64,000 nucleotides of DNA from Archangium violaceum (lineage in GTDB: Bacteria > Myxococcota > Myxococcia > Myxococcales > Myxococcaceae): NCBI RefSeq assembly GCF_016887565.1, contig NZ_CP069396.1, forward strand, positions 6,802,001 to 6,866,000, written 5' to 3'. Below, piece after piece: positions 16,291 to 35,977 of the stretch. Both the position numbers and the translations under genes were made by a program. The number at the start of each line of letters is the position of its first letter. The stretch's first letter is position 1. The notes beneath the pieces are model-generated. The model did not search any database. It had not been told where the DNA came from and was given only the letters and a program-made list of their open reading frames with translations.

Positions 16291-17055
16291 GTGACCTCAC
16301 ACCCGACCTCTCCTGCCCGCCTGCTCGAAGGGCGGCGATGCCTCGTCACCGGCGGTTCGCGCAACCTGGGCCGAGCATTCTGCCTGGCGTTCGCCCGAGC
16401 GGGCGCGAAGGTGGCGTTCACCTACTCCAAACGCACCGAGGATGCCGAGGAGACGCGGCGGATCCTCCAGGCGGAGGGCTGCGAGCCACTGGTGTTCCAG
16501 GGCTCGGTCACGGACGGGAAGCACGCGGCGGCCACGGTGGATGCCGTCGGCTCGGCCTGGGGCGGACTGGACGTGCTCGTCAACAACGCCGGCATCACCC
16601 AGGTGCTCCCCATTGCCCTGATGGACGAAGCGGACTGGGACGCCGTCATGGCCGTCAACGTGAAGGGGGCCTACCTCTTCAGCCGCGCCGCCCTCAAACC
16701 GATGCTCCGCGCTCGCGGCGGGCACATCCTCAACATCGGCTCGTTCTCCACCGACCGCGTCGTGAGCAGCCCCGTCCACTACGCCGCCTCCAAGGCGGCC
16801 CTCAAGGGCTTCTCCGAGTCCCTCGCCGCCGAGGTCGGCAAGTACGGGATCGCCGTGAACTACCTCGCGCCGGGCCTGTTGAATGGAGGACTCGCCAGCC
16901 GGCTGCCGCAGCACCGGATCGCCGAATACAAGGGACAGGCCTCGCTCGGGCGGGTGGGAACGATGGAGGAGGTCGCCGCCTTCGCCACCTGGCTCGTGTC
17001 ATCCCAGAACACCTTCATGACGGGTGCGAAGATCGCGCTCGACGGTGGGCTATGA
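16291..17055 (+). CDS. Short-chain dehydrogenase/reductase (FabG-like), first gene of operon
   Basis: A 254-residue classical SDR. The cofactor loop is TGGSRNLG (residues 20-27, NADP-type), followed by NNAG (98-101), a catalytic Ser near 151-153 and Y164-x3-K168 in YAASK. It ends with the usual MTGAKIALDGG. It probably reduces a carbonyl on an acyl or polyketide intermediate. It belongs to the same subfamily as the SDRs at 19462 and 35025 (shared LLEGR N-terminus and PGLLNGG-type motif), suggesting duplication inside the cluster. The start is a GTG at 16291 with a poor ribosome-binding site. The stop overlaps the next start by ATGA. Confidence 0.9.
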   Translation: MTSHPTSPARLLEGRRCLVTGGSRNLGRAFCLAFARAGAKVAFTYSKRTEDAEETRRILQAEGCEPLVFQGSVTDGKHAAATVDAVGSAWGGLDVLVNNAGITQVLPIALMDEADWDAVMAVNVKGAYLFSRAALKPMLRARGGHILNIGSFSTDRVVSSPVHYAASKAALKGFSESLAAEVGKYGIAVNYLAPGLLNGGLASRLPQHRIAEYKGQASLGRVGTMEEVAAFATWLVSSQNTFMTGAKIALDGGL

Positions 17056-18365
17056 GCGCCGCGCGCCCTTCCCTCCTCGAGGGGTACGAGCTGTTCCGCC
17101 GCCATGTGAATCCCCTCAGCATCACCCGCGCGGAGATCACCAACGAGCCCTACCGGGTGGTGGCGGTCCGCGAGGGGCGGCTCGTGGACTCCGATGGCCG
17201 CGAGGTGGAGGACTTCCTCTCGGGCTGGGGGACGCAGGCTTTCGGGCACCGCAACCCGTACGTCGGTCGGGCGATGCAGGAGTTCCTCGCCGGGGACTCA
17301 CCTTCGTACTTCACGTCCGTCATCAGCCCGTACGCCGGGATGCTGGCGGCCCGGTTGTCCGAGCGCACCGGAGGGGCCCTGGACCGGGCCTTCTTCGTCA
17401 GCGGCGGCAGCGAGGCCGTGGAGTCCGCGCTCAAGCTCGCGCGCGCGGCGACCCGCCGGCCGCGCATCCTCTGTCTGGAGCGGGGCTACCACGGCTACAC
17501 CATGGGCGGCGTGTCGATGATGCACCCGGGCACGTACCGGGATGCCTTCGGTCCCTACCTGCCGGCCGTGGACCGGCTGCCCTTCGGCGACCTCGCCGCC
17601 CTGGAGGCCGCGCTCGCCTCGCCGGACGTGGCCGCCCTCGTCGTCGAGCCCATCCAGATCGAAGGCGGCGTCCGCGTCCTCCCACCCGAGTATGTCCGTT
17701 TCCTCTGCGAGGAGACCCGGCGGCGCGGCGTGCTCCTGGTGGCCGATGAGATCCAGACCGGGCTGGGGCGCACCGGCCGCTTCCTCGCGAGCGATACTTG
17801 GCCCCGGCGGCCGGACGTGGTGGTGCTCGGCAAGGCACTCGGGGGCGGGCTGATGCCGGTGTCGGCCATGCTGACGCGGGCGGACGTCTTCGACCGCGCC
17901 TACGGCACCCACGCCACCGCCGAGTCCCACGCCTCCACCTTCAGCGGGAACGCCCTGGCCTGTGTCGCCTCGCTCGCCTTCCTGGACCTGCTCACCGACG
18001 AAGTGCTCCAGCGGGTGCGCGAGCGGGGGGCGGAGCTGCACCGCGCGCTCCGGGAGGCACTCGGAGGGCTGCCGCTCGTCGAGGAGATTCGCGGAGAGGG
18101 CCTGCTGGCCGGGGTGGCACTGCGGGCCGCCGACCATCCCTCGCTCACCTTCGAGTACCTGGGCATGCCCGAGTACAGCGAGCGCTCGGCGGTGGGATTG
18201 CTCGCCTGCCACCGGCTCTACAGGGCCGGCTTCCTCGTCAACGTGTGTGGCCACGACTGGAGCGTGCTGAGGTTACAGCCCCCGTTGGATACGGGAAGCG
18301 AGCGGCTCGCGGCGTTCGTGCACGCCTGCCGGGACGCGGTGGAGTACCTATGCGAGCTTCGGTAA
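17052..18365 (+). CDS. Class III PLP-dependent aminotransferase
   Basis: A 437-residue fold-type I enzyme related to glutamate-1-semialdehyde and omega-amino-acid aminotransferases. The key features are SGGSEAVESALKLAR (phosphate and cofactor binding), the DEIQTGLGRTG motif with D232, and the PLP lysine K261 in LGKALGGG. It would transfer an amino group onto an aldehyde or ketone, here most likely on a pathway intermediate. The ATG overlaps the stop of the SDR (ATGA), and the C-terminus overlaps the next gene by 16 bases, so it is firmly part of the operon. The substrate cannot be read from sequence. Confidence 0.92.
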   Translation: MSAARPSLLEGYELFRRHVNPLSITRAEITNEPYRVVAVREGRLVDSDGREVEDFLSGWGTQAFGHRNPYVGRAMQEFLAGDSPSYFTSVISPYAGMLAARLSERTGGALDRAFFVSGGSEAVESALKLARAATRRPRILCLERGYHGYTMGGVSMMHPGTYRDAFGPYLPAVDRLPFGDLAALEAALASPDVAALVVEPIQIEGGVRVLPPEYVRFLCEETRRRGVLLVADEIQTGLGRTGRFLASDTWPRRPDVVVLGKALGGGLMPVSAMLTRADVFDRAYGTHATAESHASTFSGNALACVASLAFLDLLTDEVLQRVRERGAELHRALREALGGLPLVEEIRGEGLLAGVALRAADHPSLTFEYLGMPEYSERSAVGLLACHRLYRAGFLVNVCGHDWSVLRLQPPLDTGSERLAAFVHACRDAVEYLCELR

Positions 18366-19465
18366 CGGAGACCGGGTGGATCGGCGGCCGTCGCTTCGAT
18401 GGCTTCTTCTTCTTCGGGAGCAGTCTGCTCGCGGGGGCCGCGGGCCTCGCCGTGCTCGCGTGGCCCGTGCTGCTGTTGCCCTTGTGGGCCGCGTGGCTGC
18501 TGTTGCTCGACGGGCCCCACCTGCTGGCCACGTTCGGCCGGACTTATCTGGATACACGTGAGCGGAAGGAGCGCTCTCGGCTCCTGGTGGGCAGCCTCCT
18601 CTTCTTCGTGCCGGGGCTCGTGGCGTGGGGCCTGCTGCGGCTCACGGGCGAGCGCGCCGCGTTCGATCTCTTCCTCGGCTTCGCCACGCTCTGGTCGTTC
18701 CACCACGCGGTCCGGCAGAACTACGGCCTGCTGTCCCTCTACGAGAGCTTCGCGCGGGCCTCGCCGCTGGAACGGAGGATCGACTCCCGGTTCCTGTACG
18801 TCTCGCTGTGGGCCTCGTTCGGGCTCTTCCTCCTGGGACATCCCCAGAACCGCCTCATCCTGGGGCTCCCCGCGGAGCTGCCTTTCATGGGAAGGGTCGT
18901 CCTGGTGGGGGGCGGCGTGGCCCTGGTGCTGCTGTCGCTGGCGTGGCTCGCCTTCGCGGCCGTGCGCATGCGCCGGGGCAGGGGTGGGCGTCCCTCGCTC
19001 TTCCTCCTCTGCGCCGCGTTCGGCTCGGCGATCATCCCCTTCTTCGTCATCGGCCCCTTCGAGCCGATCGTCCAGGGGCCCCAGACGCCCGAGCACATGT
19101 TCATGGCGGCGGCCATGGTGGGTGGGGTGATGCACAGCATCCAGTACCTGGGCATCGTGGTGGCCGCGAACCGCCGCCGGTTCTCGCGGCACGAGGAGCG
19201 CTCCTTCGCGGCGATGATCGGCCGTGCACCCGTGGCCGCCTATGGCCTCATGGTGGCGGTGTCGCTGCTCTACCTGCTGCTCAACTCGGTGAGGGGCGCC
19301 TCTCCGGTGGGCTCGCTCTTCCCCGAGGCGAGCGCGGTGGGCCAGCTCTTCCTCGCCCTGTACTGGGGCGTCTTCTTCCACCACTACTACCTGGACCAGA
19401 GAATCTGGCGGGTGCGGCAGCAGCCCTCGCTGAGGTACGAGCTGGGCCTCGAGGAGAGAGCGTGA
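18350..19465 (+). CDS. Polytopic membrane protein with His clusters, possible metalloenzyme
   Basis: A 371-residue protein with roughly eight to ten hydrophobic segments. Conserved-looking His motifs lie at membrane edges: DGPHLLATF, WSFHHAVRQNYG, PEHMFM with VMHSIQY, and FFHHYYLDQRIWR near the C-terminus. Several His clusters in a membrane protein recall desaturase-like or Brp/Blh-type iron enzymes, but I cannot place it in a named family. It overlaps both neighbours (16 bases with the aminotransferase, GTGA with the next SDR), so it is part of the pathway and would act at the inner membrane. An oxidative or cleaving role on a lipid is inference. Confidence 0.75.
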   Translation: MRASVTETGWIGGRRFDGFFFFGSSLLAGAAGLAVLAWPVLLLPLWAAWLLLLDGPHLLATFGRTYLDTRERKERSRLLVGSLLFFVPGLVAWGLLRLTGERAAFDLFLGFATLWSFHHAVRQNYGLLSLYESFARASPLERRIDSRFLYVSLWASFGLFLLGHPQNRLILGLPAELPFMGRVVLVGGGVALVLLSLAWLAFAAVRMRRGRGGRPSLFLLCAAFGSAIIPFFVIGPFEPIVQGPQTPEHMFMAAAMVGGVMHSIQYLGIVVAANRRRFSRHEERSFAAMIGRAPVAAYGLMVAVSLLYLLLNSVRGASPVGSLFPEASAVGQLFLALYWGVFFHHYYLDQRIWRVRQQPSLRYELGLEERA

Positions 19466-20169
19466 GACGGGCACTGGTGTTCGGCGGAACGGGGTATCTC
19501 GGGAGCGCGGTGCTGCGCGGGCTGGCCGAGGCGGATGTGCCGGCGGAGTTCACCTGGCACACCTCCGCCGAGCGCGCCCGGGCCCTGGAGGCCGAGCTGA
19601 AGCAACGGGCGCACGGGCTGGACGCGCGGGACGCTGGAGCCATCCGGCGGCTCTGCGCCTCGCTGGAATCCGAGGGCCGTACGCCCGACGTGGTGGTGCA
19701 CTGCCTGGGCGTGGGACAGGACCGGGCGCTCGCGGACATCTCGGAGGAGGACTGGGCGGCGCTGCACGCCATCAACGTGCGCTCGGCGTTCCTGGCCATC
19801 CAGTCGCTCGCGGGGCCCATGGCGGCGCGCGGCGGTGGAGACATCGTGCTCACCGCGTCCTACGACGGAAGCCGGCCGATGCCCGTCCCCGCTCACTTCG
19901 CCGCCACCCAGGGAGCGCTCTGCGCCATGGTGCGCGCGCTGTCGAAGGAGCTGGGACCCAAGGGGATTCGCGTGAACCTCGTCACGCCGGGCCTCCTGGA
20001 GGGAGGTGTCTCCCAGAGCGTCGACGCACGACTGGGGGAGGACTTCCGCAAGTTCAGCGCGTACGGCCGCCGGGGCAACGCCACCGAGGTTTCTCGCGCC
20101 ATCCTCTGGCTGGCCCTGCACAACACGTACATGACGGGCGCCGTGCTGGCCGTGAACGGAGGGTTGTGA
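19462..20169 (+). CDS. SDR-fold protein lacking the catalytic Tyr and Lys
   Basis: A 235-residue SDR homologue. The cofactor loop FGGTGYLGS (residues 7-15) is intact, but the Y-x3-K signature reads F146-A-A-T-Q150, so both catalytic residues are gone, and NNAG is replaced by LGVG. The C-terminus keeps PGLLEGG and MTGAVLAVNGG, matching the SDRs at 16291 and 35025. The frame is intact and embedded in the operon by GTGA (start) and a shared base at the stop, so it is not a decaying pseudogene. Likely a binding or structural subunit, or an enzyme using other chemistry. Confidence 0.85.
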   Translation: MRRALVFGGTGYLGSAVLRGLAEADVPAEFTWHTSAERARALEAELKQRAHGLDARDAGAIRRLCASLESEGRTPDVVVHCLGVGQDRALADISEEDWAALHAINVRSAFLAIQSLAGPMAARGGGDIVLTASYDGSRPMPVPAHFAATQGALCAMVRALSKELGPKGIRVNLVTPGLLEGGVSQSVDARLGEDFRKFSAYGRRGNATEVSRAILWLALHNTYMTGAVLAVNGGL

Positions 20170-20726
20170 TGCGGCGAGGCCTCGGCCTCGCGCTGCTGGC
20201 CGCGCTGGTCCTCCATGCCGCGACCAAGGGACAGGCACGCCTCCCGGAGATGCTGTGGGTGTGCCACGTCGCCTCCGCGCTCCTGGCGGTGGGGCTGCTG
20301 ACCTCCGTGCGGTGGCTGGTGGCGGTGGGATTCCTGATCCACGTCGGCATGGGGATGCCAGCCTTCCTGATCGACGTCATCTTCGGAGAGCGGCCGTCAC
20401 CGACATCCTGGCTGGTGCACCTCCTCCCGCTGGGGGCGGGATGGAGCGCACTGCGCGGCACGGGCCTGCCGCCTCGCACCTGGCGGGCCGCGTGGGGGAT
20501 CGTCCTCGCCACGTTCACCGTGAGCATCCTGGCCACACCACCGGCGCTCAATGTCAACGTGATGCACGAGGCCTGGGGGCCCATGAGAGGGCTTTTCCCA
20601 GGGGCCTGGGCCGTCCGTGTCTTCCACGCGCTCGAAGCGCTGGGACTCCTCTTCGGTGCGGAGCTCCTGCTTCAGCGCGTCCGTGGAGGGCAGACACAAA
20701 TCCAGGGCGTTCGTAATTCATCCTGA
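20169..20726 (+). CDS. Small integral membrane protein
   Basis: A 185-residue hydrophobic protein with about five membrane segments and short loops; no family recognised. It begins at ATG 20169 on the last base of the preceding stop (GTG 20166 is an alternative adding one residue). Strict coupling to the SDR-like gene and the presence of a second membrane protein in the same operon suggest a membrane-associated step or export of the product. A gap of 86 bases follows, so the Rieske gene downstream may also have its own promoter. Confidence 0.7.
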   Translation: MRRGLGLALLAALVLHAATKGQARLPEMLWVCHVASALLAVGLLTSVRWLVAVGFLIHVGMGMPAFLIDVIFGERPSPTSWLVHLLPLGAGWSALRGTGLPPRTWRAAWGIVLATFTVSILATPPALNVNVMHEAWGPMRGLFPGAWAVRVFHALEALGLLFGAELLLQRVRGGQTQIQGVRNSS

Positions 20727-20812
20727 GGGGAATGACGATTCCGAGATTGGCTACTTGTACGTGTTGATCAGATGAAAACTGCTAGCGTGCCGTGCCTCGA
20801 AGAGGAGGCACG

Positions 20813-21847
20813 ATGCACCCCGCCGCCACGCAGCTCCGAGGATTCTGGTACCCCGTGGCCGACAGCCGCGAGCTGCGGACGGCACCTCTCGAGCGCCGCA
20901 TCGCTGGCGAGGTGCTCGCGCTCTTCCGGGACACCCAGGGCAAGGCGCGCGTGCTCGCCGCTGGCTGTCCCCACCGGGGCGGCAACCTCGCACGAGGGAC
21001 GGTGCGCGACGGGTGCATCACCTGCCCCTTTCACGGCTGGCGCTTCGACGGAGACGGACGCTGCGTGGGCGTGCCCTCCGAGCCTCCCGGCCGCGCCCTG
21101 CCTCGCGGAGGCACCCGCGTCTACGAGGTCATCGAGCAACAGGGGCTCATCTGGACGCACCTCGGCGCGCCCGGGACCGCCGTGGCGCCTCCGCCTCGCT
21201 TCGAGGCCCTGGAGGACCCCTCCTTCCGCGCCTTCCACATCCAGGAGTCCGTTGCCCTCCCCTTCGACTGGTGGGTCGAGAACATCCTCGATGTGACGCA
21301 CGTGCCATTCGTGCACCGGCTCTCCTACGGCGGGCAGAACCCGGTGCTCGAAGGGGGCTACCCGGTCGTGAGCGGTGACGAACTCGGCTTCACCGCCCGC
21401 GTCACCACGCGCCACCGGTACTCGTTCTGGACACGGGTGCTCCATGGCTCGGTGTCCCACTTCGACATGGAGATCCGCGTCCGGCATGACATGCCGGGCA
21501 ACACCGTGTTCGACGTGGACATGGGCGGTGGGCGCCGGCAGCAGCTCCTCTTCCTCGCCACCCCCGAGGATGGTGAGAACACGCGCGTCTGGGTCTTCGT
21601 GCTGCGCAACTACCTCCGCCACATTCCCTTCGGAGACGCGGTGGGCCGGGCCTTCACGCGCCAGGTCATCCGCGAGGACCTCCAACTGGCGAAGCAGGCC
21701 GTATGGAAGATCACCCTCGCGCAGCCCCGGCCGCTCAGCGTCGCCGCGGATGCGCCCTCCGTCGAGTTCCTCCGGCTGCTGAAGCTCTGGCGCGATCGCG
21801 AGCGGCGGCCCCATCCCATCCGTGACTCGGAGCAGGCCCATGGCTGA
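20813..21847 (+). CDS. Rieske non-heme iron oxygenase, alpha-subunit type
   Basis: A 344-residue Rieske oxygenase. The [2Fe-2S] motif C52-P-H54 with C71-P-F-H74 lies in the N-terminal domain. The mononuclear iron site follows the N157-x2-D160-x2-H163-x4-H168 pattern in ENILDVTHVPFVH. The length and single-subunit look fit the vanillate/phthalate/choline-monooxygenase-like group; some members in natural-product clusters catalyse ring closure. The start at 20813 is fixed by a strong GAGGAGG eight bases upstream. It overlaps the radical SAM gene by eight bases. No dedicated reductase is encoded nearby. Role in tailoring the cluster product is inferred. Confidence 0.93.
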   Translation: MHPAATQLRGFWYPVADSRELRTAPLERRIAGEVLALFRDTQGKARVLAAGCPHRGGNLARGTVRDGCITCPFHGWRFDGDGRCVGVPSEPPGRALPRGGTRVYEVIEQQGLIWTHLGAPGTAVAPPPRFEALEDPSFRAFHIQESVALPFDWWVENILDVTHVPFVHRLSYGGQNPVLEGGYPVVSGDELGFTARVTTRHRYSFWTRVLHGSVSHFDMEIRVRHDMPGNTVFDVDMGGGRRQQLLFLATPEDGENTRVWVFVLRNYLRHIPFGDAVGRAFTRQVIREDLQLAKQAVWKITLAQPRPLSVAADAPSVEFLRLLKLWRDRERRPHPIRDSEQAHG

Positions 21848-23282
21848 CACCCGGCTGCACACGACGACGAGCCTCTGCGCGAAGTGCAAGCGCACCCTTC
21901 CGGCCGAGCTGTGGCGGCGCGGCGAGCAGGTGGTGATGACCAAGGCCTGCCCCGAGCACGGTCCCTCGGAGGTGGTCATCTCCTCGGACGCCGCCTGGTA
22001 CGAGCAGGTGATGGCGTACCCGCCCGAGCTGCAGACTCCCACCGCGCGCAAGGAGGTCTCCCAGGGCTGCCCCTATGACTGCGGCCCCTGCACGCGGCAC
22101 GAGCAGCGGCTCCTGCTGCCCATCGTGCCCATCACCTCCGCGTGCAACCTCGACTGCCCCATCTGCTACACGCACAACAAGAACGCGGGCGCCTGGCACA
22201 TGAGCGAGGACGAGCTGCGCTCCCTCCTGCGGCACCTGCGGCTGGCCGCCCCCGAGCGGCGCATCATCAACCTCACCGGTGGCGAGCCCACCCAACACCC
22301 GGCTTTCGAGCGGCTGGTGGAGCTGTGCCACGAGGAGGGCATCCACCGCATCACCGTCTCCACCCATGGCATGCGCTTCCTCAAGGACGAGTGGCTCCTG
22401 GAGAAGCTCGCCCGGCTGGACGCGCGCGTCATCCTCTCGTTCGACTCGTTCGAGAAGCAGGCCAACAAGGACATGCTGGGCGGGGACTTCGCGGGCCCCA
22501 AGATGCGCGTGCTCGCCCTGCTGGAGAAGCACGGCGTCAACACCACGCTCCTGCCCGTGCTCGCGCGCGGGGTGAACGACCACGAGGTGGCCCGGTTCAT
22601 CGACCTCGCGCTCTCCAAGGACTTCATCCGCAGCCTGGAGCTCCACACGCTCACCTTCACCGGACAGAGCGGCGCGGCCTTCGCTCGCAGCGCGCGCTAC
22701 ACCACCGTGGACGTGTTGAAGGACATCGAGCGGCACACCGAAGGCCGGCTGCGCGTGCGCGACTTCGCGCCCTCTCCCGCGGCCCACCCGCTCTGCTATC
22801 TCGTCACGTACGTGCTGCGACTCGGGCCGGAGCGCTGGCTGCCCTTCACCCGCTTCATGGACTGGAAGGACATGCGCGCCCTCTTCGGCGGCTCGCTCTA
22901 CCTGGAGCCCGGTCCGGAGCTGGAGGGCAAGCTGCAGGATCTCATCAACCGGCTCTGGGCCGGGGAGATCGACTGCGAGGAACGCGACGAGGTGCTCGCC
23001 GCCCTCAAGCGCCTCACCCAGGAGCTCTTCGCACCGGGGCTCTCGGAGCAGGAGCGGTTGCGCATCGCCGAGGCCAGCACCAAGGCCCTCTACGTCCACG
23101 CGCACATGGACGAGGAGACATTCGATACCGATCGCATCCGCGCCTGCCCCGTCGGTGTCCGGGAGCCGGATGGCACCAACGTCCCCTCCTGCGCCTACAA
23201 CGTGCTCTATCGTGAGCGGGACTCCCGCTACATGAAGGCGCCCCGGCCTCCCCTGCACACGCTCGGACCTGGCCGAAAGTAG
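21840..23282 (+). CDS. Radical SAM protein of the tetraether-synthase-like (Tes/MJ0619) group
   Basis: A 480-residue radical SAM enzyme. The [4Fe-4S] motif is C102-N-L-D-C106-P-I-C109. Before it lies a Zn/rubredoxin-like CxxC (C13, C16) with CPEHG, then C77-P-Y-D-C81-G-P-C84, the second Cys cluster typical of archaeal Tes-like proteins. TGGEPTQHP follows. A C-terminal segment with CPVGVREPDG and SCAYN is shared with the paralogue at 33319. Tes couples unactivated lipid carbons and MJ0619 relatives methylate pterins; which chemistry applies here is unknown. ATG 21840 has GGAG upstream and overlaps the Rieske gene. It ends the operon. Confidence 0.88.
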   Translation: MADTRLHTTTSLCAKCKRTLPAELWRRGEQVVMTKACPEHGPSEVVISSDAAWYEQVMAYPPELQTPTARKEVSQGCPYDCGPCTRHEQRLLLPIVPITSACNLDCPICYTHNKNAGAWHMSEDELRSLLRHLRLAAPERRIINLTGGEPTQHPAFERLVELCHEEGIHRITVSTHGMRFLKDEWLLEKLARLDARVILSFDSFEKQANKDMLGGDFAGPKMRVLALLEKHGVNTTLLPVLARGVNDHEVARFIDLALSKDFIRSLELHTLTFTGQSGAAFARSARYTTVDVLKDIERHTEGRLRVRDFAPSPAAHPLCYLVTYVLRLGPERWLPFTRFMDWKDMRALFGGSLYLEPGPELEGKLQDLINRLWAGEIDCEERDEVLAALKRLTQELFAPGLSEQERLRIAEASTKALYVHAHMDEETFDTDRIRACPVGVREPDGTNVPSCAYNVLYRERDSRYMKAPRPPLHTLGPGRK

Positions 23283-23498: not shown

Positions 23499-24947
23499 AT
23501 GCCAACCCGCCCCCAGTGGCTGTCTCTGTTGCTCCCCGGTTTGTTGTTCTTCTCCATCCTTGGCGGAACCCCGCGCGATGCCGACGCGCGCCCGAGGGAG
23601 TGCAGGAAGTGCACGCCGGATGGCGGTTCGGACGCCGGCACCGGCTACGACGCCGGCACTCCGGACGCCGGCACGGGCTCCGATGCCGGTACCGGATATG
23701 ACGCGGGCACGGGCTACGACGCGGGCACTCCGGACGCGGGCACCGGCTCCGATGCGGGGACGCCTCCTCCCACGAGCTGCCTCGCCGAGCCGCTGCTCCA
23801 GTCGCTCGGGAAGGACCACGTGCTCGTCGGCGCGCAGACGGACAGCGTCGTGGCCGGACTGGCACCATTCGATGTCCGTTACATCTATCTCGCGGGCGGC
23901 CTGTTCGACAGCACGCAGCCGTGCACCTCGTGCCAGACCTGCACTTCCGCCGGACAGTCCTGCTCCAATTTGAATCTCAGTGGGTGTGGTTGGTGGGCCT
24001 GCTGGCAGTCGGATCTGCTCCCCCCGGGCCAGTACCTGCGCGACTTCATCACGCAGACCACCACCCTGGGGCAGATCCCGATGATCACCTACTACGAGAT
24101 GCTTCACGCCAGCCGCGCGGCGGAGGGCTCCCAGGAGGTCGCCAAGGCGCAAGACGTTGCATTGATGCAGCGCTACTTCAATGACTGGCGTTTCGTCTTG
24201 AAGCAGATTGGGAATTCCACTGCATTCCTTCACATCGAGCCAGACTTCTGGGCCTACGCCCAGCAGGTGAACACGAATCCCCACCTGATTCCGGCGGCGG
24301 TCGCCTCGGCCAACCCCACGGACTGCACGGGCGTGGAGAACAGCATCGCCGGCATGGGCCGCTGCATGATCTCCATGGTGCGCCGGTACGCCCCCAACGC
24401 CCGCGTCAGCCTGCATGCCTCGGCGTGGGGGACGAAGGTGGACGCCATGATGAACCGCTACCCCACCTTCGACGTGGAGTCAGAGGCACGCAAGGTGGCC
24501 GACTTCCTCCTCGAGTGCGGCGCGGGCTCCGGGGATTTCATCGTGGTGGAGACGAGCGACCGCGATGCCCAGTGGTACCAGGTGACGACGGGGACGGACC
24601 ACTGGTGGGACCCGACCAACGCCTCGCTCCCGAACTTCCGTCAGGCCTTCCGGTGGTCCAAGGCGCTCTCGGAGCGCATGGGCCTGCCCAACCTGTGGTG
24701 GCAGATCCCCGTGGGCAACATGTCGCTGCCCGGCTACACCCAGCACTGGAAGGACAACCGGCTGGACTACTTCCTCGACCACCCGGGCGAGGTCGCCGCC
24801 TCCCACGGGCTCGGGATGATCTTCGGCGCCGGGGAGCAGGCCCAGACGAACCCCTCCACCGACAACGGGCATCTCCTCCAGCGGGTGAACGAGTACTTCT
24901 TCACCGGGGGACAGCCAGCCTGCCCCAACGTCAGCACCGCTCCCTAG
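23499..24947 (+). CDS. Secreted protein with Asp-Ala-Gly repeat linker and barrel-like catalytic-type domain
   Basis: A 482-residue exported protein. Residues 1-31 form a signal peptide. Residues ~42-88 are tandem DAGTGYDAGTPDAG-like repeats. The remaining ~390 residues form a globular domain with strands such as FLHIEPDFWAY, SLHASAWGT and FIVVETSDRD, an arrangement reminiscent of a TIM-barrel glycoside hydrolase with acidic residues at strand ends; several Cys pairs suggest disulphides. I do not recognise the family. It has GAGAGG upstream and its own intergenic region, and it lies between the two halves of the cluster, so a link to the pathway is possible but unproven. Its stop overlaps the convergent permease gene by four bases. 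Confidence 0.7.
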   Translation: MPTRPQWLSLLLPGLLFFSILGGTPRDADARPRECRKCTPDGGSDAGTGYDAGTPDAGTGSDAGTGYDAGTGYDAGTPDAGTGSDAGTPPPTSCLAEPLLQSLGKDHVLVGAQTDSVVAGLAPFDVRYIYLAGGLFDSTQPCTSCQTCTSAGQSCSNLNLSGCGWWACWQSDLLPPGQYLRDFITQTTTLGQIPMITYYEMLHASRAAEGSQEVAKAQDVALMQRYFNDWRFVLKQIGNSTAFLHIEPDFWAYAQQVNTNPHLIPAAVASANPTDCTGVENSIAGMGRCMISMVRRYAPNARVSLHASAWGTKVDAMMNRYPTFDVESEARKVADFLLECGAGSGDFIVVETSDRDAQWYQVTTGTDHWWDPTNASLPNFRQAFRWSKALSERMGLPNLWWQIPVGNMSLPGYTQHWKDNRLDYFLDHPGEVAASHGLGMIFGAGEQAQTNPSTDNGHLLQRVNEYFFTGGQPACPNVSTAP

Positions 24948-26026: not shown

Positions 26027-26433
26027 GCGGTGCGTCCCTGACGCTTGGCCTCGGCCAGGTTCACGAACGTCCGCACCGAGAACAGCGCGAGGATCTGCAC
26101 CGGCCGCAGGCCCGGCTTGATGCGGTCCGCGGCCTCGGGCATCAGCTCGCGCAGCCGCGCCAGGCCCGCCTCGGAGATGACTCCCGCCGGGGCGAACTCC
26201 TCGTCCGTCATGTCCCCGCGCGCCGCCCGCTCCATCTCCCCGCGCGTGATCTGGATGCCGAAGGCGCGCTCCAGCTTGAACACGATGTCCAGGAAGTCGA
26301 GCGACTCGGCCCCCAGGTCCTCCATCAGGTTGTGCTCGGGCAGCACCTCGGAGACATCCCGGGCGAGCGCCTCGGCGATGACCTCTCGAACCACCTGCAC
26401 CACGTCCTTCTCGGCCTGCGCGGGCTGCGTCAT
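26023..26433 (-). CDS. Acyl carrier protein with C-terminal extension
   Basis: A 136-residue ACP. The phosphopantetheine serine is S44 in LGAESLDFLD; Glu in place of Asp before the Ser is seen in several specialised ACPs. Residues ~10-85 form the carrier domain. Another ~50 residues follow, ending in a segment (PVQILALFSVRTFVNLAEA) that resembles the last helix of a carrier, so the domain may contain an insertion. It is the only carrier gene in the cluster and so the likely tether for the growing chain. Start and stop overlap the nitroreductase and permease genes by ATGA and GTGA. Confidence 0.9.
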   Translation of the reverse strand: MTQPAQAEKDVVQVVREVIAEALARDVSEVLPEHNLMEDLGAESLDFLDIVFKLERAFGIQITRGEMERAARGDMTDEEFAPAGVISEAGLARLRELMPEAADRIKPGLRPVQILALFSVRTFVNLAEAKRQGRTA

Positions 26434-27104: not shown

Positions 27105-27841
27105 TCCAGCTTGAACCCTCCGTCCACGTTCCACACCTGCCCGGTGACATAGCTCGCATCCTCACCGCACAGGAAGGCGACCACCCGCGCCACCTCCGCC
27201 GGGCGGCCCAGGCGACGCAGCAGGATTCGGCGCTTCAGCTCATCCGGCGCCAGGGCTTGGAGATCGGACGTCATCCCCGTGTCGATGAGGCCCGGGGCGA
27301 CCGCGTTCACCCGGATGCCTCGCGGGGCCAGTTCCACCGCCAGGGCTCGCGTGAAGGACTCCACCGCCCCCTTCGAGGCCGCGTAGTTGCTCTGTCCCCG
27401 CCCGGGCCGCTGCGCTCCCACCGACGAGAGCGTGACGATGGCTCCTCGCCGCCTCCCCACCATCCGGCGGCTCGCCTCGCGGCAGCAGTTCACCACGCCG
27501 TCGAGGTTGATTCGGAGCACGCTGTCGAAGTCCTCGGGCTCGCTCGCTCCCAGCAGCGTGTCCCGTGTGATGCCAGCGTTGCACACCAGCACCGAGGGCT
27601 CTCCGAGCGTCTCCTCGAGCTTCCGGAACATGTCGGCCACCTCGGGGGCGGAGGACACGTCCGCTCGCAGGGCACAGGCTTCCACCCCGAGCTCACGGAT
27701 CGCATCCACCGTCTCGATGGCCTGGACCTCGTTGCGCAGGTAGTTGACTCCCACCGCGTGGCCTCGCTTCGCGAGCTCGAGAGCCACGGCCTTGCCAATG
27801 CCTCGAGATGCCCCGGTGACGAGCGCTACGGGTCGAGTCAT
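27101..27841 (-). CDS. 3-oxoacyl-ACP reductase (FabG-type ketoreductase)
   Basis: A 246-residue SDR closely resembling FabG: TGASRGIG cofactor loop, CNAG, SS catalytic Ser region, YAASK, and a C-terminus ending in VTGQVWNVDGGF. It would reduce the beta-keto group on the ACP-bound chain after each KS condensation. Unlike the three SDRs in the plus-strand units it looks canonical for fatty-acid or polyketide elongation. A 178-base gap carrying an inverted repeat separates it from the upstream ketosynthase genes; downstream overlap with the nitroreductase is ATGA. Confidence 0.92.
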   Translation of the reverse strand: MTRPVALVTGASRGIGKAVALELAKRGHAVGVNYLRNEVQAIETVDAIRELGVEACALRADVSSAPEVADMFRKLEETLGEPSVLVCNAGITRDTLLGASEPEDFDSVLRINLDGVVNCCREASRRMVGRRRGAIVTLSSVGAQRPGRGQSNYAASKGAVESFTRALAVELAPRGIRVNAVAPGLIDTGMTSDLQALAPDELKRRILLRRLGRPAEVARVVAFLCGEDASYVTGQVWNVDGGFKLE

Positions 27842-28019: not shown

Positions 28020-29189
28020 TCATGGAACCTCCACACGCACGACTCCCGCGAGCCCCGGTGCTCCGACGGATAGGGCCAAGGCTTGACGGGCCGCCGTCTC
28101 CTCGGCCTTCGTGAGGGGCCTCAATCGCCCCGGTGCTGGTTCGCGCAACCCCGCCACCGGAGGCAATACACCCCGGCGCAGGCAGCTCGCCAGCGCGATG
28201 AGCTGCACCACCGGAGCCGATGCGCCCAGTTGCCCCATCGCCGAGGCCGTCGCCGTCAGGAGCTGCCCCTCCGGAACGACCCGCGCGAGCGCCTCCCGCT
28301 CCGCCGCATCGAACGTCGCGTCCGCGCGTCCCGCTCCATCGATGACCTGTATCCCGGGCCTCACCAGTGACGCGGCCACTCTCGCGAGCGTCTCCACCCG
28401 AGACGCCCCCTTGCTTCCATCCGCCCCATCCGCCGCCTCGGCCCACGCCAGCGCCCGAGTCCCCGCGCGCTCCACCGGCTCCAGCACCACCGCAGCCGCG
28501 GCCTCGCCTGGGACGAAGCCCGCCGAGCGCATGCTGTACGGGGGCTCCAGCGACTCCAGGCTCGCGCGATTCGCCGCGCCGCTCGCGCCCAGCTCCACGA
28601 GCACCTCGGGCTCCAACAGCGTGTCCTCCGTGAGCACGATGGCCACGTCCACCGCTCCGGCCGCGAGCGCCCTCTGCGCCGACGCAAGTGCCTGCGCCCC
28701 CGCGTTCGCCCCTCCGAAGGTCATCCCCTCCCCGCGCGCCTTCAGCGCCACGGACACCAACGCGTGCGCGTTGTTCGACAGGTGTTGCAACATCCAGAAC
28801 GGGTGCAATCCCTCCAGGCCGCGCTTCCAGGCCTCGCGGCCGTCCGGCGCCTGCCGTTCGAGCGCCGGCATCATCTCCTCCCAATGCGCGCGCAGCCCGC
28901 CGAAGCCCGCGAAGAGGCCCACCCGATCGCCGCCCCGGACTCCAGCCTGCTCCGCCGCCTCGCGCGCCACCTCCAGGGTGAAGCGCCCCATCCGGCGCAG
29001 GAAGCGGCCCTCCCGGGAGCGTGACGGTTGGACTCCCACGGGCGCCACCAGCCGGCATGCGTACGCCTCGGCCTCGATGCCCTCCGGAGGCCGGGCCGCG
29101 CGTTCTCCCGCGAGCAGCCGCGCCACGCCCTGCTCCACCGTCACGCCGAGCGGCGTCCTCCACGCCCAGCCCGTCACCGCCGCCTTCAT
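28020..29189 (-). CDS. Ketosynthase-like protein without catalytic residues (chain-length-factor-like, pair 2)
   Basis: A 389-residue thiolase-fold protein homologous to FabF/KS. The nucleophile position reads GGANAGAQ, with N162 in place of Cys. The first His motif (HGTGT) has become DGAGRAD near 285-289, and the second His is replaced by Q320 in SAMGQLG. All three catalytic residues are therefore lost while the fold motifs (PGEAAAAVVLE, C-terminal Gly-rich strand) remain. It is coupled by ATGA to the intact KS at 29186-30466, so I infer a KS/CLF-type heterodimer. It resembles KS-beta in spirit but lacks the usual Gln of type II CLFs. Confidence 0.87.
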   Translation of the reverse strand: MKAAVTGWAWRTPLGVTVEQGVARLLAGERAARPPEGIEAEAYACRLVAPVGVQPSRSREGRFLRRMGRFTLEVAREAAEQAGVRGGDRVGLFAGFGGLRAHWEEMMPALERQAPDGREAWKRGLEGLHPFWMLQHLSNNAHALVSVALKARGEGMTFGGANAGAQALASAQRALAAGAVDVAIVLTEDTLLEPEVLVELGASGAANRASLESLEPPYSMRSAGFVPGEAAAAVVLEPVERAGTRALAWAEAADGADGSKGASRVETLARVAASLVRPGIQVIDGAGRADATFDAAEREALARVVPEGQLLTATASAMGQLGASAPVVQLIALASCLRRGVLPPVAGLREPAPGRLRPLTKAEETAARQALALSVGAPGLAGVVRVEVP

Positions 29190-30466
29190 GAAACCCTCCC
29201 GAGTACGAGCGTGACGTTCTGGCCGCCGAAGCCAAAGGAGTTGGAGAGCACGTAGGCCACCCGCGCCGACCGGGGCATGGGGCCGATGATGTCCAGGTCG
29301 CACTCCGGATCCCGCTCCAGGAAGTGCGCGGTGCCCGGAAGCAGATCGCGCTCGAAGGCCAGCAGGCACGAGGCGAGCTCCACCGCTCCCGATGCCGCCA
29401 TCAGGTGCCCCACCGCGCCCTTGATGGAGCTCACGGCGACGGTCTCCGCGTGCGAACCGAGCGCGCCCCGGATGGCCTTCACCTCGGCCGGGTCATTGAG
29501 CGGCGTGCCCGTCCCGTGGGCGTTGATGTAACCCACCGCCTTGGGAGACAGGCGCGCGTGGCGTAGCGCGTTCTCCATGGCACGCCGTGCGGAGGCTCCG
29601 TCCGGCCGGGGAGCCGTCACCCGATAGGCGTCCTGCGTCCGTCCCCAGCCGAGGATGCGCGCCAGGGGCCGCGCCCCACGCAGTTGCGCATGCGCCTCGG
29701 ACTCCACGACGAACATCGCCGCGCCCTCGCCCACCACCAGTCCGTCCCGCCGCCGATCGAAGGGCCGGCATGCGTCCGGGGCATTGCGCGGGGATGGCGC
29801 TCCCAGCCGCGACATGCCCCCGATGCCGAGCGGGTTCACCATGGAGTCCGTGGCACCGCACAGCACCACCGAGGCCTCTCCCCGCTCGATGAGCGCGGCG
29901 GCATGCGCCACGGCGAGCCCTCCAGCTGCACAGGCGGAGACGTGCACCGTCGTCCCACCGCGAAGCCCGAGCAACCGCTGGAGGGCCTCGGCCGCGAGAT
30001 CGAGCCTCGCCCGGAAACGCACGGGTGGCAGGGACGCGGCTGGCTCACGGTCCCAGTGGATGCGGCCCTCGTCGAACAAGGGACCGAAGTCCTCGAGGAA
30101 GGCCTGTTCCAGCCCGAGCGCCACCGAGAGGGACGCCTCCCGTTCCCCGGGGCCGCACCGGGCGCTCCGCCAGGCCTCCTCGGCCGCGAGCAGTCCGAAG
30201 ACGAGCTTGCGATCCCGGAGCGCACCGCTCGCCCCGAGCTCATCGAGCAGCCTCGCTCCAGTCTCAAGCGACGACAGCCGCTCGCGCAGTGAGTGTACTT
30301 CGAGGGGAGGCACCTCTCCCGCGACCTGGGTGGGAAACGTGCGTGCGTCGAAAGCGCGGATGGGGCCGACCGCACCGCGCCCCTCCACCAGTCCATCGAA
30401 GAACGCCGAGGCCCCCACGCCAAAAGCGGACACCACCCCGACACCGGTGACGACGGCGTGTCTCAT
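29186..30466 (-). CDS. Beta-ketoacyl-ACP synthase, catalytic (pair 2)
   Basis: A 426-residue KS of the FabF type with an intact triad: C179 in VSACAAGG, H317 in NAHGTGTPLND and H354 in KGAVGHLMAASG (K349). PGEGA-type motif appears as VVGEGAAMFV, and the C-terminus has SNSFGFGGQN. It would perform decarboxylative Claisen condensation on ACP-bound acyl chains. The start at 30466 overlaps the stop of the upstream gene by ATGA, and its own stop overlaps the inactive partner downstream the same way. The adjacent degenerate KS is its likely dimer partner. Confidence 0.93.
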   Translation of the reverse strand: MRHAVVTGVGVVSAFGVGASAFFDGLVEGRGAVGPIRAFDARTFPTQVAGEVPPLEVHSLRERLSSLETGARLLDELGASGALRDRKLVFGLLAAEEAWRSARCGPGEREASLSVALGLEQAFLEDFGPLFDEGRIHWDREPAASLPPVRFRARLDLAAEALQRLLGLRGGTTVHVSACAAGGLAVAHAAALIERGEASVVLCGATDSMVNPLGIGGMSRLGAPSPRNAPDACRPFDRRRDGLVVGEGAAMFVVESEAHAQLRGARPLARILGWGRTQDAYRVTAPRPDGASARRAMENALRHARLSPKAVGYINAHGTGTPLNDPAEVKAIRGALGSHAETVAVSSIKGAVGHLMAASGAVELASCLLAFERDLLPGTAHFLERDPECDLDIIGPMPRSARVAYVLSNSFGFGGQNVTLVLGRVS

Positions 30467-31521
30467 GGTGCCACCCCCACCAGCTCCACGAGCCCCACCT
30501 CTCCGTCCACACCCAGCGAGAGCACCTGGACTCGGCGTGCCCGTCCTCCCACCAGGAGATCCACCGCCGCCGCCCACGCCAGCGCCGGAGACGCGGCGAG
30601 TGCCTCGCCCAGCACCCGCACGGTGTCGAAGACCTGAATCCCCAGGCGCGCGGCCTCGCTTCCGAGCGTCCCGGCCAGCATGGGTCCCCAGGCCGCGGTG
30701 AGGACGGCATCCACCGGGCCGTGGGCGCCAGCGAGAGCACCCGAGAGCCTCTCCATCGGGATCACCTCACATCGCTCGACATGGGCGAGCGCGGGCTCTT
30801 CCCGCCGGGACGAGAGCGCGAGCAGTCCCGCGCCCTCACCCGGAACCAATCCCCGCCCGGTGAACCCCTCCCGCCCCAGCTCGGCCCAGGTCACCGGGTG
30901 CAGGGCGGAGTCCGCGCCTCCCGCCAGGGCCCGCTCGCACTCTCCACTGGCCACGGTCGCCAGCCCCTCGCGCAGGGCTCGCACCGTCCCGGCCCCTCGC
31001 GAGAAGAAGGCACCATTCGGCCCTCCCACCCCCTCCAGGATGGCCCCGTGGCAGAGCGTGAAGTTGTTCATCAACTGGAAGGCGAACAGCGGGTTGCATG
31101 CGGCGAGCCCCTCGCGGCCGAACCGCTCCATCGAGAGCGTCCCACCCTCGATGCTGGCCCGGAGCATGGCCGTCAGCTCGTCCATCGTTCCGCCCGACGC
31201 CCCCACCCCAAGGAAGGCGCCGATCTCCTCGTGGCCCTCGCTCCAGTGTGCATCGCGAAGGGCCTCACGCATCACCACCGCCGCCAGCCGCGCCCCGCGC
31301 GACATGAGCTTCCGCTGGCGTCCATCCCCCGCGTCCTGAGAGGGCGCGAACGGGGGAACCTCGGCCGCCTCGACTCCGGGGTGCGTGGCCGCGAGCGCAT
31401 GCGTGGTGGAGCGCAGGGGCTTCCCCGCGAGCACCGCGCCTCCGAGCCCGCGCCACCCCACGCCGAAGGCGCTCACCGCGGCCGCACCGACGACGGCCAC
31501 CCCGGGCGGAGTCCCCGTCAT
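30463..31521 (-). CDS. Ketosynthase-like protein without catalytic residues, shortened (pair 1)
   Basis: A 352-residue KS-fold protein, about 50-60 residues shorter than a normal KS. Around the expected nucleophile the sequence is GPNGAFFSRGAG; by alignment to GPxxxVSTAC the Cys is replaced by Gly near 176. No HGTGT or GHxxxAxG motif is present. VPGEGAGLLAL is retained. It lies between two catalytic KS genes with ATGA overlaps on both sides; I assign it as partner of the KS at 31518 because that order (active, then inactive) is repeated in the next pair. A chain-length or scaffolding role is inferred. Confidence 0.83.
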   Translation of the reverse strand: MTGTPPGVAVVGAAAVSAFGVGWRGLGGAVLAGKPLRSTTHALAATHPGVEAAEVPPFAPSQDAGDGRQRKLMSRGARLAAVVMREALRDAHWSEGHEEIGAFLGVGASGGTMDELTAMLRASIEGGTLSMERFGREGLAACNPLFAFQLMNNFTLCHGAILEGVGGPNGAFFSRGAGTVRALREGLATVASGECERALAGGADSALHPVTWAELGREGFTGRGLVPGEGAGLLALSSRREEPALAHVERCEVIPMERLSGALAGAHGPVDAVLTAAWGPMLAGTLGSEAARLGIQVFDTVRVLGEALAASPALAWAAAVDLLVGGRARRVQVLSLGVDGEVGLVELVGVAP

Positions 31522-32723
31522 GCGAGCCTCCGGACCACAAGGCTGGTGTTCGCCCCGCCGAAGGCGAATGCGTTCACCAGCGCGGTCCCGGCCTCCTGGT
31601 GCACGGCTTCTCCCATCACATGCGGGAGCTCGCAGTCCGGATCCGGCGTCTCGAGCCCCGCGCTGGGCAGCATCCGCCCGCCCACCACCGCCTCGTACGC
31701 GCAGACGAGCCCGAGCGCCCCGGCACCGGCCACCCAGTGCCCCAGCGCCCCCTTCACGCTGCCCACGCGCGCCCTCGTCAGGCCGTCCCCGAGCACCGCG
31801 CGGAGCGCCTTCGCCTCGACGGGATCATTGAGCGGCGTGGAGGTGCCATGCGCCTGCACATAGTCCACCGTCTCCACCCCCGCGTCCCGCAGCGCGGCCG
31901 ACATGGCCCGCCGTGCACCATCCCCCTCGGGGTCCGGCGCGGTGAGGTTGTAGGCATCGAGCGAGCGCCCCACTCCGGCGATCTCCGCCCGTGCCTCGCC
32001 GCGCTCGACGGAGAGCACCACCATGGCGGCGCCCTCGCCCACCACGAAGCCATCCCTGCGAGCATCGAAGGGGCGCGAGCACCCCTTGGCGCTCAGGATG
32101 CCCAGGTGTCCGAAACCCGCCAGCATCAGCGGATCCACGTCCGCGCCCACACCGCCGCACAGGGCCACGTCGCAGAGGCCGAGCCGGAGCGCCCGCACCG
32201 CCTCGATGATGGCCGCGCTACCGGAGGCGCAGGCCAGGGACACGGTCTGCGCCGGGCCCCGCGCGTCCCACTCCCCCGCCAGTGCCGAAGCCACCGCCGC
32301 CGGAGACACCACCGAGGCATCGATCCGCTCCGCGAGCGCGGGAGCCCGAGCACCGAAGCGGAGGTGCTCGAACGTCCGTCCCCCCCCCGCCGCCCGAGCC
32401 AGCTCGCACACCGTGGCGAGCGTGGCCCGTCCAGATTCCGCGCCAATGAAGACCCCGAGCCGCTCCGGCGCGACGGATACACCCGCCCGCGTCCAGGCCT
32501 CCCGCGCCGCGCGCCGGGCCAGCCCCATCCGTCGGTCCGGCCCGTCGAGCTCCGGGTCGAGCACGGGAGCGCCGACGGTGCAGGGAAAGCCCTCCACATC
32601 GAAATGAGTGATGGGTCCGATGGCGCTCCGCCCCGCCGCCAGCGCGTCCGCGGTGGAAGGCCAGTCCCGGCCCAGGGCGGAGACCACGCCCACCCCGCGG
32701 ATGAAGACGCGCCGGGCGCTCAC
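31518..32723 (-). CDS. Beta-ketoacyl-ACP synthase, catalytic (pair 1)
   Basis: A 401-residue FabF-type KS with all active-site residues: C165 in SLACASGSAA, H292 in QAHGTSTPLND, and K324/H329 in KGALGHWVAGAG. The C-terminus carries NAFAFGGANTS. The GTG start at 32723 overlaps the stop of the dehydratase gene (GTGA). It differs clearly from the second active KS, so the two pairs may act on different chain lengths or in successive modules. No acyltransferase or malonyl-loading gene is in the window, so malonyl-ACP would come from primary metabolism. Confidence 0.93.
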   Translation of the reverse strand: MSARRVFIRGVGVVSALGRDWPSTADALAAGRSAIGPITHFDVEGFPCTVGAPVLDPELDGPDRRMGLARRAAREAWTRAGVSVAPERLGVFIGAESGRATLATVCELARAAGGGRTFEHLRFGARAPALAERIDASVVSPAAVASALAGEWDARGPAQTVSLACASGSAAIIEAVRALRLGLCDVALCGGVGADVDPLMLAGFGHLGILSAKGCSRPFDARRDGFVVGEGAAMVVLSVERGEARAEIAGVGRSLDAYNLTAPDPEGDGARRAMSAALRDAGVETVDYVQAHGTSTPLNDPVEAKALRAVLGDGLTRARVGSVKGALGHWVAGAGALGLVCAYEAVVGGRMLPSAGLETPDPDCELPHVMGEAVHQEAGTALVNAFAFGGANTSLVVRRLA

Positions 32724-33187
32724 GGCTCCTCCGAGGAGCCGTGGAGCCACACGTTGAGGACCTCGCGGCGTTTGGCGATCAACGAGGCGTGCTTCACCTG
32801 CGCGAAGGCGAACGTCAGCTCGGCCTCGGCGACGAGCTGCTCGTCCACTCGGGCGAACGCCCGCACCTGGCCGCCGTCCTCGCTCGCGGTGAGCCCCTTC
32901 GCCTCCAGGAGCATCTTGTCCCCCGGCCGGACGAGCCGCCGGAACTTGGCGCGCTCCACCGACACCAGCAGCGCGTGCAGGTCCGAGCGGCCCCGCGTGC
33001 GCATCGTCGCCTCCAGCAGGACGCCGCCGAGCTGCGCGAGCGACTCGAGGATGAGCGCGCCGGGCATCACCGGGTGCCCCGGGAAATGGTCGACGAAGAC
33101 GTCATCGGCGAGCGAGACGCACTTGACGCCCAGGGCCCGCTCGGGCGGTTGAAGCTCGGAGATCCGGTCCAGCAGCACGTAGCGCAT
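32720..33187 (-). CDS. FabZ-like 3-hydroxyacyl-ACP dehydratase
   Basis: A 155-residue hot-dog-fold protein. The catalytic His lies in DHFPGHPVMPG (H34) and the acidic residue in ESLAQ (E48), both as in FabZ. It would dehydrate the 3-hydroxyacyl-ACP made by the ketoreductase to a 2-enoyl chain. No classical enoyl reductase is encoded in the operon, so double bonds could be retained unless a host FabI or the flavoprotein acts. It is the first gene of the minus operon; ATG 33187 is the only start giving a FabZ-like N-terminus. Confidence 0.92.
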   Translation of the reverse strand: MRYVLLDRISELQPPERALGVKCVSLADDVFVDHFPGHPVMPGALILESLAQLGGVLLEATMRTRGRSDLHALLVSVERAKFRRLVRPGDKMLLEAKGLTASEDGGQVRAFARVDEQLVAEAELTFAFAQVKHASLIAKRREVLNVWLHGSSEEP

Positions 33188-35780: not shown

Positions 35781-35782
35781 CG

Positions 35783-35977
35783 ATGGGCGAGGAGAATCCG
35801 CCGTCCCCGCTGCCCTTTCCGACGAGCCTCTGTCACCGCTGTGCCGCGCCGCCGAAGTACGTGCGGACGAAGACGTCCACGTTCATCCTCTGCCCGCTGC
35901 TGCCGAACAAGTACCCGCCCCAGCCGGTGCTCAGGTGCCCGCTCTTCCGGCCGAAACCACCAGACACGGAGAAGTAG
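35783..35977 (+). CDS. Small four-Cys protein
   Basis: A 64-residue protein beginning two bases after the SDR stop with GGAGGCGTG-type sequence upstream. It contains CHRC near residue 17-20 and two further Cys (LCPLLPNKYPPQPV flanked by Cys), spaced as in a small zinc ribbon or Fe-S binding protein. Tight spacing places it in the radical SAM-SDR operon, where it might be an electron carrier or an accessory subunit. No family recognised. Confidence 0.65.
   Translation: MGEENPPSPLPFPTSLCHRCAAPPKYVRTKTSTFILCPLLPNKYPPQPVLRCPLFRPKPPDTEK

Follow-up and report, generated by a model that had tools for sequence, protein, structure and literature searches.

A patchily distributed gene cluster of Archangium violaceum links FabF-like ketosynthases to two Tes-like radical SAM enzymes and may direct the synthesis of an unusual amino-lipid

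Our results suggest that a 64,000-nucleotide (nt) stretch of the Archangium violaceum genome (assembly GCF_016887565.1, contig NZ_CP069396.1, positions 6,802,001 to 6,866,000; hereafter the window, whose own numbering is used throughout) carries a biosynthetic cluster whose combination of genes appears to be new. In this cluster, a conserved block of ketosynthase (KS), chain-length factor-like (CLF), FabG, FabZ, nitroreductase and acyl carrier protein (ACP) genes is linked to two radical S-adenosylmethionine (SAM) enzymes resembling Tes, to an aminotransferase and to short-chain dehydrogenases/reductases (SDRs). We give about an even chance to the reading that this is a horizontally mobile system, which makes an unusual membrane-associated amino-lipid by means of a FabF-like synthase and Tes-like radical SAM enzymes. 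The linkage of the genes is shown; that the product bears an amine, is a lipid and arises by carbon-carbon coupling is inferred. The parts are of known kinds, and it is their combination and its spread that appear new; no description of the combination was found in the open PMC literature, supplements and bioRxiv lying outside the search.

The host genome is a single contig of 13.2 Mb, and the cluster comprises about 17 genes in three units. The first-pass annotation had placed most of these genes in three tightly packed units, and both the open reading frames (ORFs) and the domain calls agree with it, adding a nitroreductase and an ACP that it had not mentioned. Unit A (16291-23282, plus strand) encodes an SDR, a class III aminotransferase, a membrane protein, another SDR, another membrane protein, a Rieske/VanA_C protein and a radical SAM enzyme. 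Unit B (33187-26023, minus strand) encodes a FabZ-like protein, KS1, CLF1, KS2, CLF2, FabG, the nitroreductase and the ACP, and a PHO4 transporter then runs to 24944. Unit C (33319-35780, plus strand) consists of the radical SAM gene C1 and the SDR gene C2. Units B and C are divergent, with starts 131 nt apart, and of the 15 junctions within units, 13 are overlaps, of 4 nt in 11 cases and of 8 and 16 nt in one case each, the other two being gaps of 86 nt (A5-A6) and 178 nt (CLF2-FabG).

That these units form one undescribed-looking cluster had been proposed from the window alone, on the understanding that the radical SAM and KS homologues should be found together in other genomes. They are found together, and in syntenic order, across Myxococcota and the unrelated genus Massilia, and the proposal stands. 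A scan with C1 returned 26 loci, located in a Sorangium metagenome-assembled genome (MAG), in Polyangium, in five Massilia species, in a Betaproteobacteria genome and in many delta, gamma and other MAGs; as these were found by exact peptide patterns, distant loci are under-sampled. When these loci were searched with the window proteins, 17 of the 26 proved to have three or more unit-B genes next to C1. Three further loci (L053, L054 and L056) have FabZ at the contig end, the remaining six being L057, L059, L062, L064, L065 and L066. As a rule the block reads FabZ-KS1-CLF1-KS2-CLF2-FabG-nitroreductase-ACP, is transcribed away from C1-C2 and has about 44-80% identity. The ACP is present in 11 of the 17 block loci and is located elsewhere in Polyangium. 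C2 lies directly 3' of C1 in 25 of the 26 loci (in L064, about 5 kb further on). Moreover, an A7 homologue is present in all 20 carrier genomes searched, 18 times on the C1 contig at a distance of at most about 22 kb, and on another contig in genomes G111 and G113. Among 22 assembled regions, homologues of the remaining unit A genes were counted for A4 (17), A2 (16), A1 (15), A5 (11), A3 (8) and the Rieske gene (3); these counts are lower bounds, many regions ending early.

In support of this linkage, C1 and CLF1, which served as the marker of the block, co-occur across whole genomes, in searches that scored the best few first-look candidates per genome. Of the 195 genomes searched in the window's phylum, 7 have C1 (E<=1e-100) and 5 have CLF1 (E<=1e-30), and each of these 5 also has C1. 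The two C1 genomes without a CLF1 call are G174, whose 3.6-kb C1 contig carries a terminal CLF1 fragment, and G154, whose C1 is 40% identical and whose 11-kb contig holds no KS. Of the 289 genomes of the Polyangium carrier's class, 34 have C1 (17 at >=59% identity and 17 at 38-45%). CLF1 (E<=1e-20) was detected in 17 genomes, 16 of which belong to the 34 and 15 to the close 17; G465 has a CLF1-like match without C1. The co-occurrence greatly exceeds chance, with hypergeometric p values of 9e-9, 5e-16 and 4e-21, which, the genomes being related, are indicative only. C1 was also found in 6 of 17 genomes of the Massilia carrier's genus, in 2 of 6 of the window's own genus (G000 and G004) and in 2 of 321 of the class of G108, both of them already-found carriers. 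Note that KS1 (E<=1e-60) was not found in 5 of the 10 carriers searched, namely G174, G154, G108, G335 and G383; the last two correspond by coordinates to L053 and L056, and their contigs of 4.1 and 3.4 kb have FabZ at the end. In G105 no KS was found in the 40 kb compared, KS1 being located on the C1 contig at a distance of about 26 kb, and in G107 KS1 is on another contig.

The distribution of the cluster is patchy. In the C1 tree, the Massilia sequences and a gamma MAG fall inside a supported group (99/98) with the window, G004 and the Sorangium MAG, and this nesting indicates horizontal transfer. Carriage by plasmids was considered and rejected: nine plasmid records matched, and the best-ranked had just 32% identity over 88% of C1.

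All eight genes of the synthase block are on the minus strand. They encode a FabZ/FabA-like hotdog dehydratase conserved in the block (B1, 32720..33187; Pfam FabA); KS1 (B2, 31518..32723) and KS2 (B4, 29186..30466), both FabF-like ketosynthases; the KS homologues CLF1 (B3, 30463..31521), which is short, and CLF2 (B5, 28020..29189); a FabG-like ketoreductase with an intact Ser-Tyr-Lys motif (B6, 27101..27841); a nitroreductase-family FMN enzyme, likewise conserved in the block (B7, 26430..27104; Pfam Nitroreductase), whose best NCBIfam match is BluB (84 bits, under the cut-off of 150); and an ACP of 136 amino acids (aa) (B8, 26023..26433; Pfam PP-binding). The KS and CLF assignments rest on domain calls and, for KS1, CLF1 and CLF2, on alignment. 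The active-site Cys and both His are kept in 13 of 13 aligned KS1 homologues and in the KS2 of the window. The active-site Cys is missing from CLF1 and CLF2 among the alignment rows listed; CLF1, in addition, lacks a Pfam match to the C-terminal KS domain.

Among solved structures, FabF proteins match KS1 and KS2 best (195 and 259 bits), and Act KS-alpha scores lower (146 and 192 bits). FabF structures also outscore 6kxd, which we take to be Iga11, for both proteins, and for KS2 they score far above 6qsp, presumably an aryl polyene KS; 6qsp is not among the best 60 of the 149 structure matches of KS1. As occurs in highly reducing type II polyketide and aryl polyene systems, a KS, a Cys-less partner, a ketoreductase, a dehydratase and an ACP are separate proteins here. 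Aryl polyene clusters, however, are recognised by a ligase, an ammonia-lyase, an acyltransferase and a glycosyltransferase, none of which was present in the 19 window proteins scanned; the window has instead radical SAM enzymes, an aminotransferase and KS proteins closer to FabF. No aromatic type II cyclase or aromatase was present among the same 19 proteins. We therefore reject both filings, aryl polyene and aromatic type II, in agreement with what had been said of this DNA before.

The KS tree, rooted by midpoint only, groups KS2 with the KS of a variant locus type with a single KS (98/97) and CLF1 with the partner of that KS (94/92), KS1 and CLF2 being separate. Since KS2 and CLF1 are thus the shared pair, the earlier pairing of KS and CLF genes by adjacency is probably wrong. 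On the simplest reading KS2-CLF1 would be the ancestral pair, to which KS1 and then CLF2 were added, loss being also possible with this root. In locus L210, KS1, CLF1 and KS2 are present and CLF2 was not detected, and by the tree and this locus CLF2 is probably a later addition. The variant itself, with one KS and one CLF, is probably ancestral. It was seen among weaker C1 places, 11 of 18 of which were fetched. Four loci (L205, L206, L209 and L215) have FabZ, nitroreductase and ACP genes, a single KS and a KS-like ORF that the tree places among the CLFs, together with some of FabG, A4, A5, the aminotransferase and a radical SAM/SPASM protein. In L205, L206 and L209 the KS block has the radical SAM pair close by, and L215 has just a short A7 match. 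A7, C1 and C2 are side by side in 8 of the 11 weaker loci (L200-L206 and L209). G108 and L065 resemble the single-KS form.

The two radical SAM enzymes, C1 (33319..35028, plus strand) and A7 (21840..23282, plus strand), were assigned by domain calls and by alignment with the archaeal Tes structure 7TOL and, for C1, by a tree. Both align with 7TOL (7TOL/7TOM being, we presume, MJ0619) over nearly the whole length, keeping the radical SAM CxxxCxxC motif, the CPxDCGxC motif, the N-terminal zinc ribbon and the C-terminal cysteines, of which A7 has one of the two adjacent ones. The full-length architecture and the cluster cysteines are therefore common to Tes, C1 and A7. Invariant cysteines number 15 in C1 (19 homologues) and 12 in A7 (22 homologues), in alignments that omit rows with <45% identity or <400 aa. 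Unlike Tes and A7, which have one zinc-ribbon module, C1 has a second N-terminal Cys module, present in 15 of its 19 homologues; a further difference from Tes is that two paralogues accompany a type II synthase here. Both proteins also match most of the NCBIfam TrsS model NF045646, below its cut-off of 490 (C1, 293.8 bits; A7, 227.8 bits). A7 homologues split into two clades, and several relatives carry both.

Two other Tes-like proteins were observed. A genome of the same order (G149, contig C1:214537-215991; locus L131) encodes a protein over the NCBIfam Tes cut-off, with 496 bits, which is a candidate for a true tetraether synthase among the relatives of the window genome. The window genome itself has a third Tes-like protein (L163:9712-11175; contig C1:1930712-1932175) with 230 bits and homologues in other genomes of the family; no KS-block gene lies within the surrounding 20 kb.

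An indication of the fate of the product comes from A5 (20166..20726, plus strand), a seven-helix membrane protein whose model (pLDDT 92) has a predicted TMEM164/ATGY-like fold. Compared with TMEM164 (9lw1), the model gave a VIA Z of 13.8 (172 residues aligned at a root-mean-square deviation of 3.1; next row 7.2), although helical bundles reach a Z of about 13 by common arrangement. Foldseek gave a probability of 0.99 with an E of 0.21, and the Pfam TMEM164 family was called in 2 of 11 A5 homologues (best E 4.9e-4). In A5, C33 and H34 are nearly invariant and H85 is invariant, and these conserved Cys and His may correspond to the catalytic pair of TMEM164. From the TMEM164/ATGY acyltransferases and LhaT, A5 differs by its weak sequence match and its own biosynthetic context. 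As described in PMC10474074 and PMC12345273, TMEM164 transfers acyl chains from one phospholipid to another, and LhaT, a bacterial member of the superfamily, transfers an acetyl group. Relatives of the cluster add genes for FA_hydroxylase/AGMO-like, LPG_synthase_TM, Acyl_transf_3, Zn-dependent phospholipase-like, radical SAM/SPASM and phosphopantetheinyl transferase proteins. The A5 fold and these lipid-type genes thus indicate, without proving it, membrane lipid chemistry. Of the product proposed by the first-pass annotation, a reduced or polyene amine of lipid-like nature or a coupled lipid, it is accordingly the lipid part that gains support, from the A5 fold and from the AGMO-like hydroxylase and LPG_synthase_TM of the relatives. 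The other membrane protein, A3 (18350..19465, plus strand; alignment of 8 and a model of pLDDT 76), belongs to no recognised family: neither Foldseek nor VIA gave a clear fold match, and nothing in Pfam was credible. Six of its His residues (H57, H118, H119, H262, H344 and H345) are invariant in the alignment.

The amine is suggested by A2 (17052..18365, plus strand), a class III pyridoxal phosphate-dependent aminotransferase (Pfam Aminotran_3). Its nearest relatives are PigE (NCBIfam, 331 bits, below the cut-off of 850) and putrescine aminotransferase, and its closest solved structures are a putrescine aminotransferase and 4ppm, deposited as 'Aminotransferase' and presumably PigE. PigE and putrescine aminotransferase act on aldehyde and amine substrates. 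A link to prodigiosin through the PigE-like A2 was rejected, passages of PMC10213415 assigning the pigment to a pig operon of its own, which includes pigC, pigD and pigE. The prodigiosin operon is also present in 4 of the 5 Massilia species with the cluster.

The SDRs A1 (16291..17055, plus strand, with 16411 as another possible start; Pfam adh_short_C2) and C2 (35025..35780, plus strand; Pfam), the partner of C1, have intact Ser-Tyr-Lys motifs. A4 (19462..20169, plus strand; Pfam adh_short_C2) is an SDR-fold protein with a degenerate catalytic site, the Lys being Gln in 15 of 17 homologues and kept in G108 and L065; its catalysis has perhaps been lost or its role changed, perhaps alongside the second KS pair. 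A6 (20813..21847, plus strand; Pfam), a Rieske oxygenase of VanA_C type, is an accessory gene, the 3 regions with it being the window, G004 and G109.

From these assignments we propose the following pathway. KS2-CLF1, here also KS1-CLF2, would elongate malonyl units on the ACP, FabG and FabZ would process the beta-carbon, and the nitroreductase would reduce or oxidise the chain. The aminotransferase A2 would convert a keto or aldehyde group to an amine, and the SDRs and the Rieske protein (in relatives, the AGMO-like hydroxylase) would set the oxygens. C1 and A7 would generate carbon radicals at unactivated chain positions, most likely for carbon-carbon bond formation, which we favour because of the Tes architecture, methylation, cyclisation or desaturation being the conceivable alternatives. 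Finally, the TMEM164-like A5 and the multi-His A3 would hand the acyl product into the membrane or modify it there, giving an unusual membrane-associated amino-lipid.

Several observations weigh against this amino-lipid. C1 and A7 reach just 273.1 and 236.6 bits with the NCBIfam Tes model NF045702 (cut-off 450), and C1 scores higher with TrsS than with Tes. In the radical SAM tree, whose deepest forks are weak (72/85), whose branches are long and from which archaeal Tes was left out, both form clades apart from the over-cut-off protein of L131. Because of these scores and clades, their reaction may differ from that of Tes. In addition, 7 of the 11 weaker loci (L200-L204, L207 and L208) have no KS-block gene in 9-20 kb, some being at contig ends, so the radical SAM pair is not strictly tied to the synthase. 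The A5 of the window has 14.3 bits with Pfam TMEM164, under the gathering score of 25, and its VIA score is close to that of helical bundles in general; A5 and A3 are present in half or fewer of the 22 regions, several of these being truncated. The loss of the catalytic Lys from A4 is not explained by the proposed pathway. The window domain calls show no evident gene for starter loading, thioester release or glycerol attachment, and the head-group step likewise has no gene assigned in the window.

A possible, though in our view unlikely, alternative is a secreted polyketide amine or beta-amino acyl product, in which the radical SAM enzymes would methylate, isomerise or cyclise and no membrane lipid would be made. 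Such a product would be the type II counterpart of the zeamine-like amino-polyketides. The gene logic of cispentacin is in its favour: as described in passages of PMC10698177, a KS, a motif-less partner and a hotdog protein work there with AmcC, a class III aminotransferase that aminates an ACP-bound intermediate, and the cispentacin/coronafacic acid type (AmcF-AmcG, AmcC) shares this set with the window. The second aminotransferase copies of several relatives also fit a secreted amine. The TMEM164-like fold and the lipid-type genes speak against it, as does the lack of an AmcH-like adenylating starter enzyme and of a thioesterase among the window domain calls. Unlike the cispentacin cluster, moreover, the window has two KS genes, radical SAM enzymes, a ketoreductase and a nitroreductase. 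Filing the cluster under the cispentacin/coronafacic acid type was rejected on the AmcF model NF058662 (cut-off 325), with which KS2 has 196.6 bits and CLF2 60.9 bits, CLF1 being unlisted and KS1 left out.

Quite improbable is a ladderane-like system, in which a polyunsaturated chain would be made and then cyclised by the radical SAM enzymes. Passages of PMC2649909 describe anammox ladderane clusters with divergent FabF paralogues that lack active-site residues, radical SAM enzymes and phytoene-desaturase-like genes. The anammox/Desulfotalea ladderane-type type II fatty acid synthase resembles the window in the first two, by description in the case of the radical SAM enzymes. However, no phytoene-desaturase-like protein is among the 19 window proteins scanned, for which reason this filing was rejected, and the window has an aminotransferase, a nitroreductase and an SDR set; the words aminotransferase and nitroreductase are absent from the main text of PMC2649909. 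Least probable of all is that the three units are independent neighbours, a block for fatty acids standing beside a pair that modifies lipids and a plus-strand operon related to neither. This view is favoured by the rearrangement of unit A genes in relatives, where they lie as far as about 22 kb from C1 (Polyangium and G109) or on different contigs (G111 and G113), by the weaker loci whose radical SAM pair has no nearby KS block and by the rarity of the Rieske gene. It is opposed by the presence of A7 in every carrier searched, mostly on the C1 contig, by the contiguity of A7, C1 and C2 in most of the weaker loci fetched and by a content that stays similar in distant phyla while the order is shuffled.

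Returning to the amino-lipid, a more specific and rather doubtful form of it is that, in aerobic Gram-negatives, a dedicated type II synthase makes amino-functionalised chains and the two Tes-like enzymes join two of these by their tails, so that the amino-lipid is bipolar, with a head at either end. Archaeal Tes welds membrane lipid tails together, and, if true, the bipolar product would correspond in bacteria, without glycerol, to the membrane-spanning lipids of archaea. The enzymes would then be the first of the Tes-like type in bacteria whose substrate source is genetically fixed. As stated in PMC11868695, the capacity of bacterial Tes homologues for membrane-spanning lipids has not been experimentally confirmed. 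In the present cluster, one compact transferable unit combines two Tes-like enzymes with what is presumably their supply of substrate (ACP and KS/CLF), and the presence of the cluster in named Massilia and Polyangium strains makes the radical SAM chemistry directly testable. The loci also form a series in which the passage between one KS/CLF pair and two can be traced.

The limits of the cluster need correction with respect to the annotation. Neither the PHO4-family phosphate transporter (PiT; 24944..26026, minus strand; Pfam), which overlaps the ACP gene by 4 nt, nor a secreted protein (23499-24947) is core; the transporter is absent at this place in G004 and, among the examined loci, is present in three (the window, G105 and G136). 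The proposed end at 35977 takes in a Cys-containing ORF of 66 aa after C2 (35777-35977, plus strand), which has no Pfam match and has a close counterpart, of 67 aa, solely in the same-genus G004 among the 22 regions.

The CLF2-FabG gap (27842-28019) is filled by a long, near-perfect palindrome with a predicted RNA fold of -108.9 kcal/mol; since CLF2 and FabG overlap in G039, it looks like a small repeat element inserted into the operon. In G004 (L039:4363-9452, minus strand), a SNF2/helicase-like gene and a 720-aa gene without a Pfam match are located between A5 and A6. Just upstream of unit A, the window encodes a Pyr4-like transmembrane terpene cyclase (15076-15840, plus strand; Pfam PF25129, 43 bits, cut-off 27) beside a P450 (13575-14867, plus strand), a second P450 being located at 8715-10109 (minus strand). 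These genes may belong to a terpenoid locus of their own or be an addition to the cluster; in G004 a P450 homologue precedes A1, with no gene called between.

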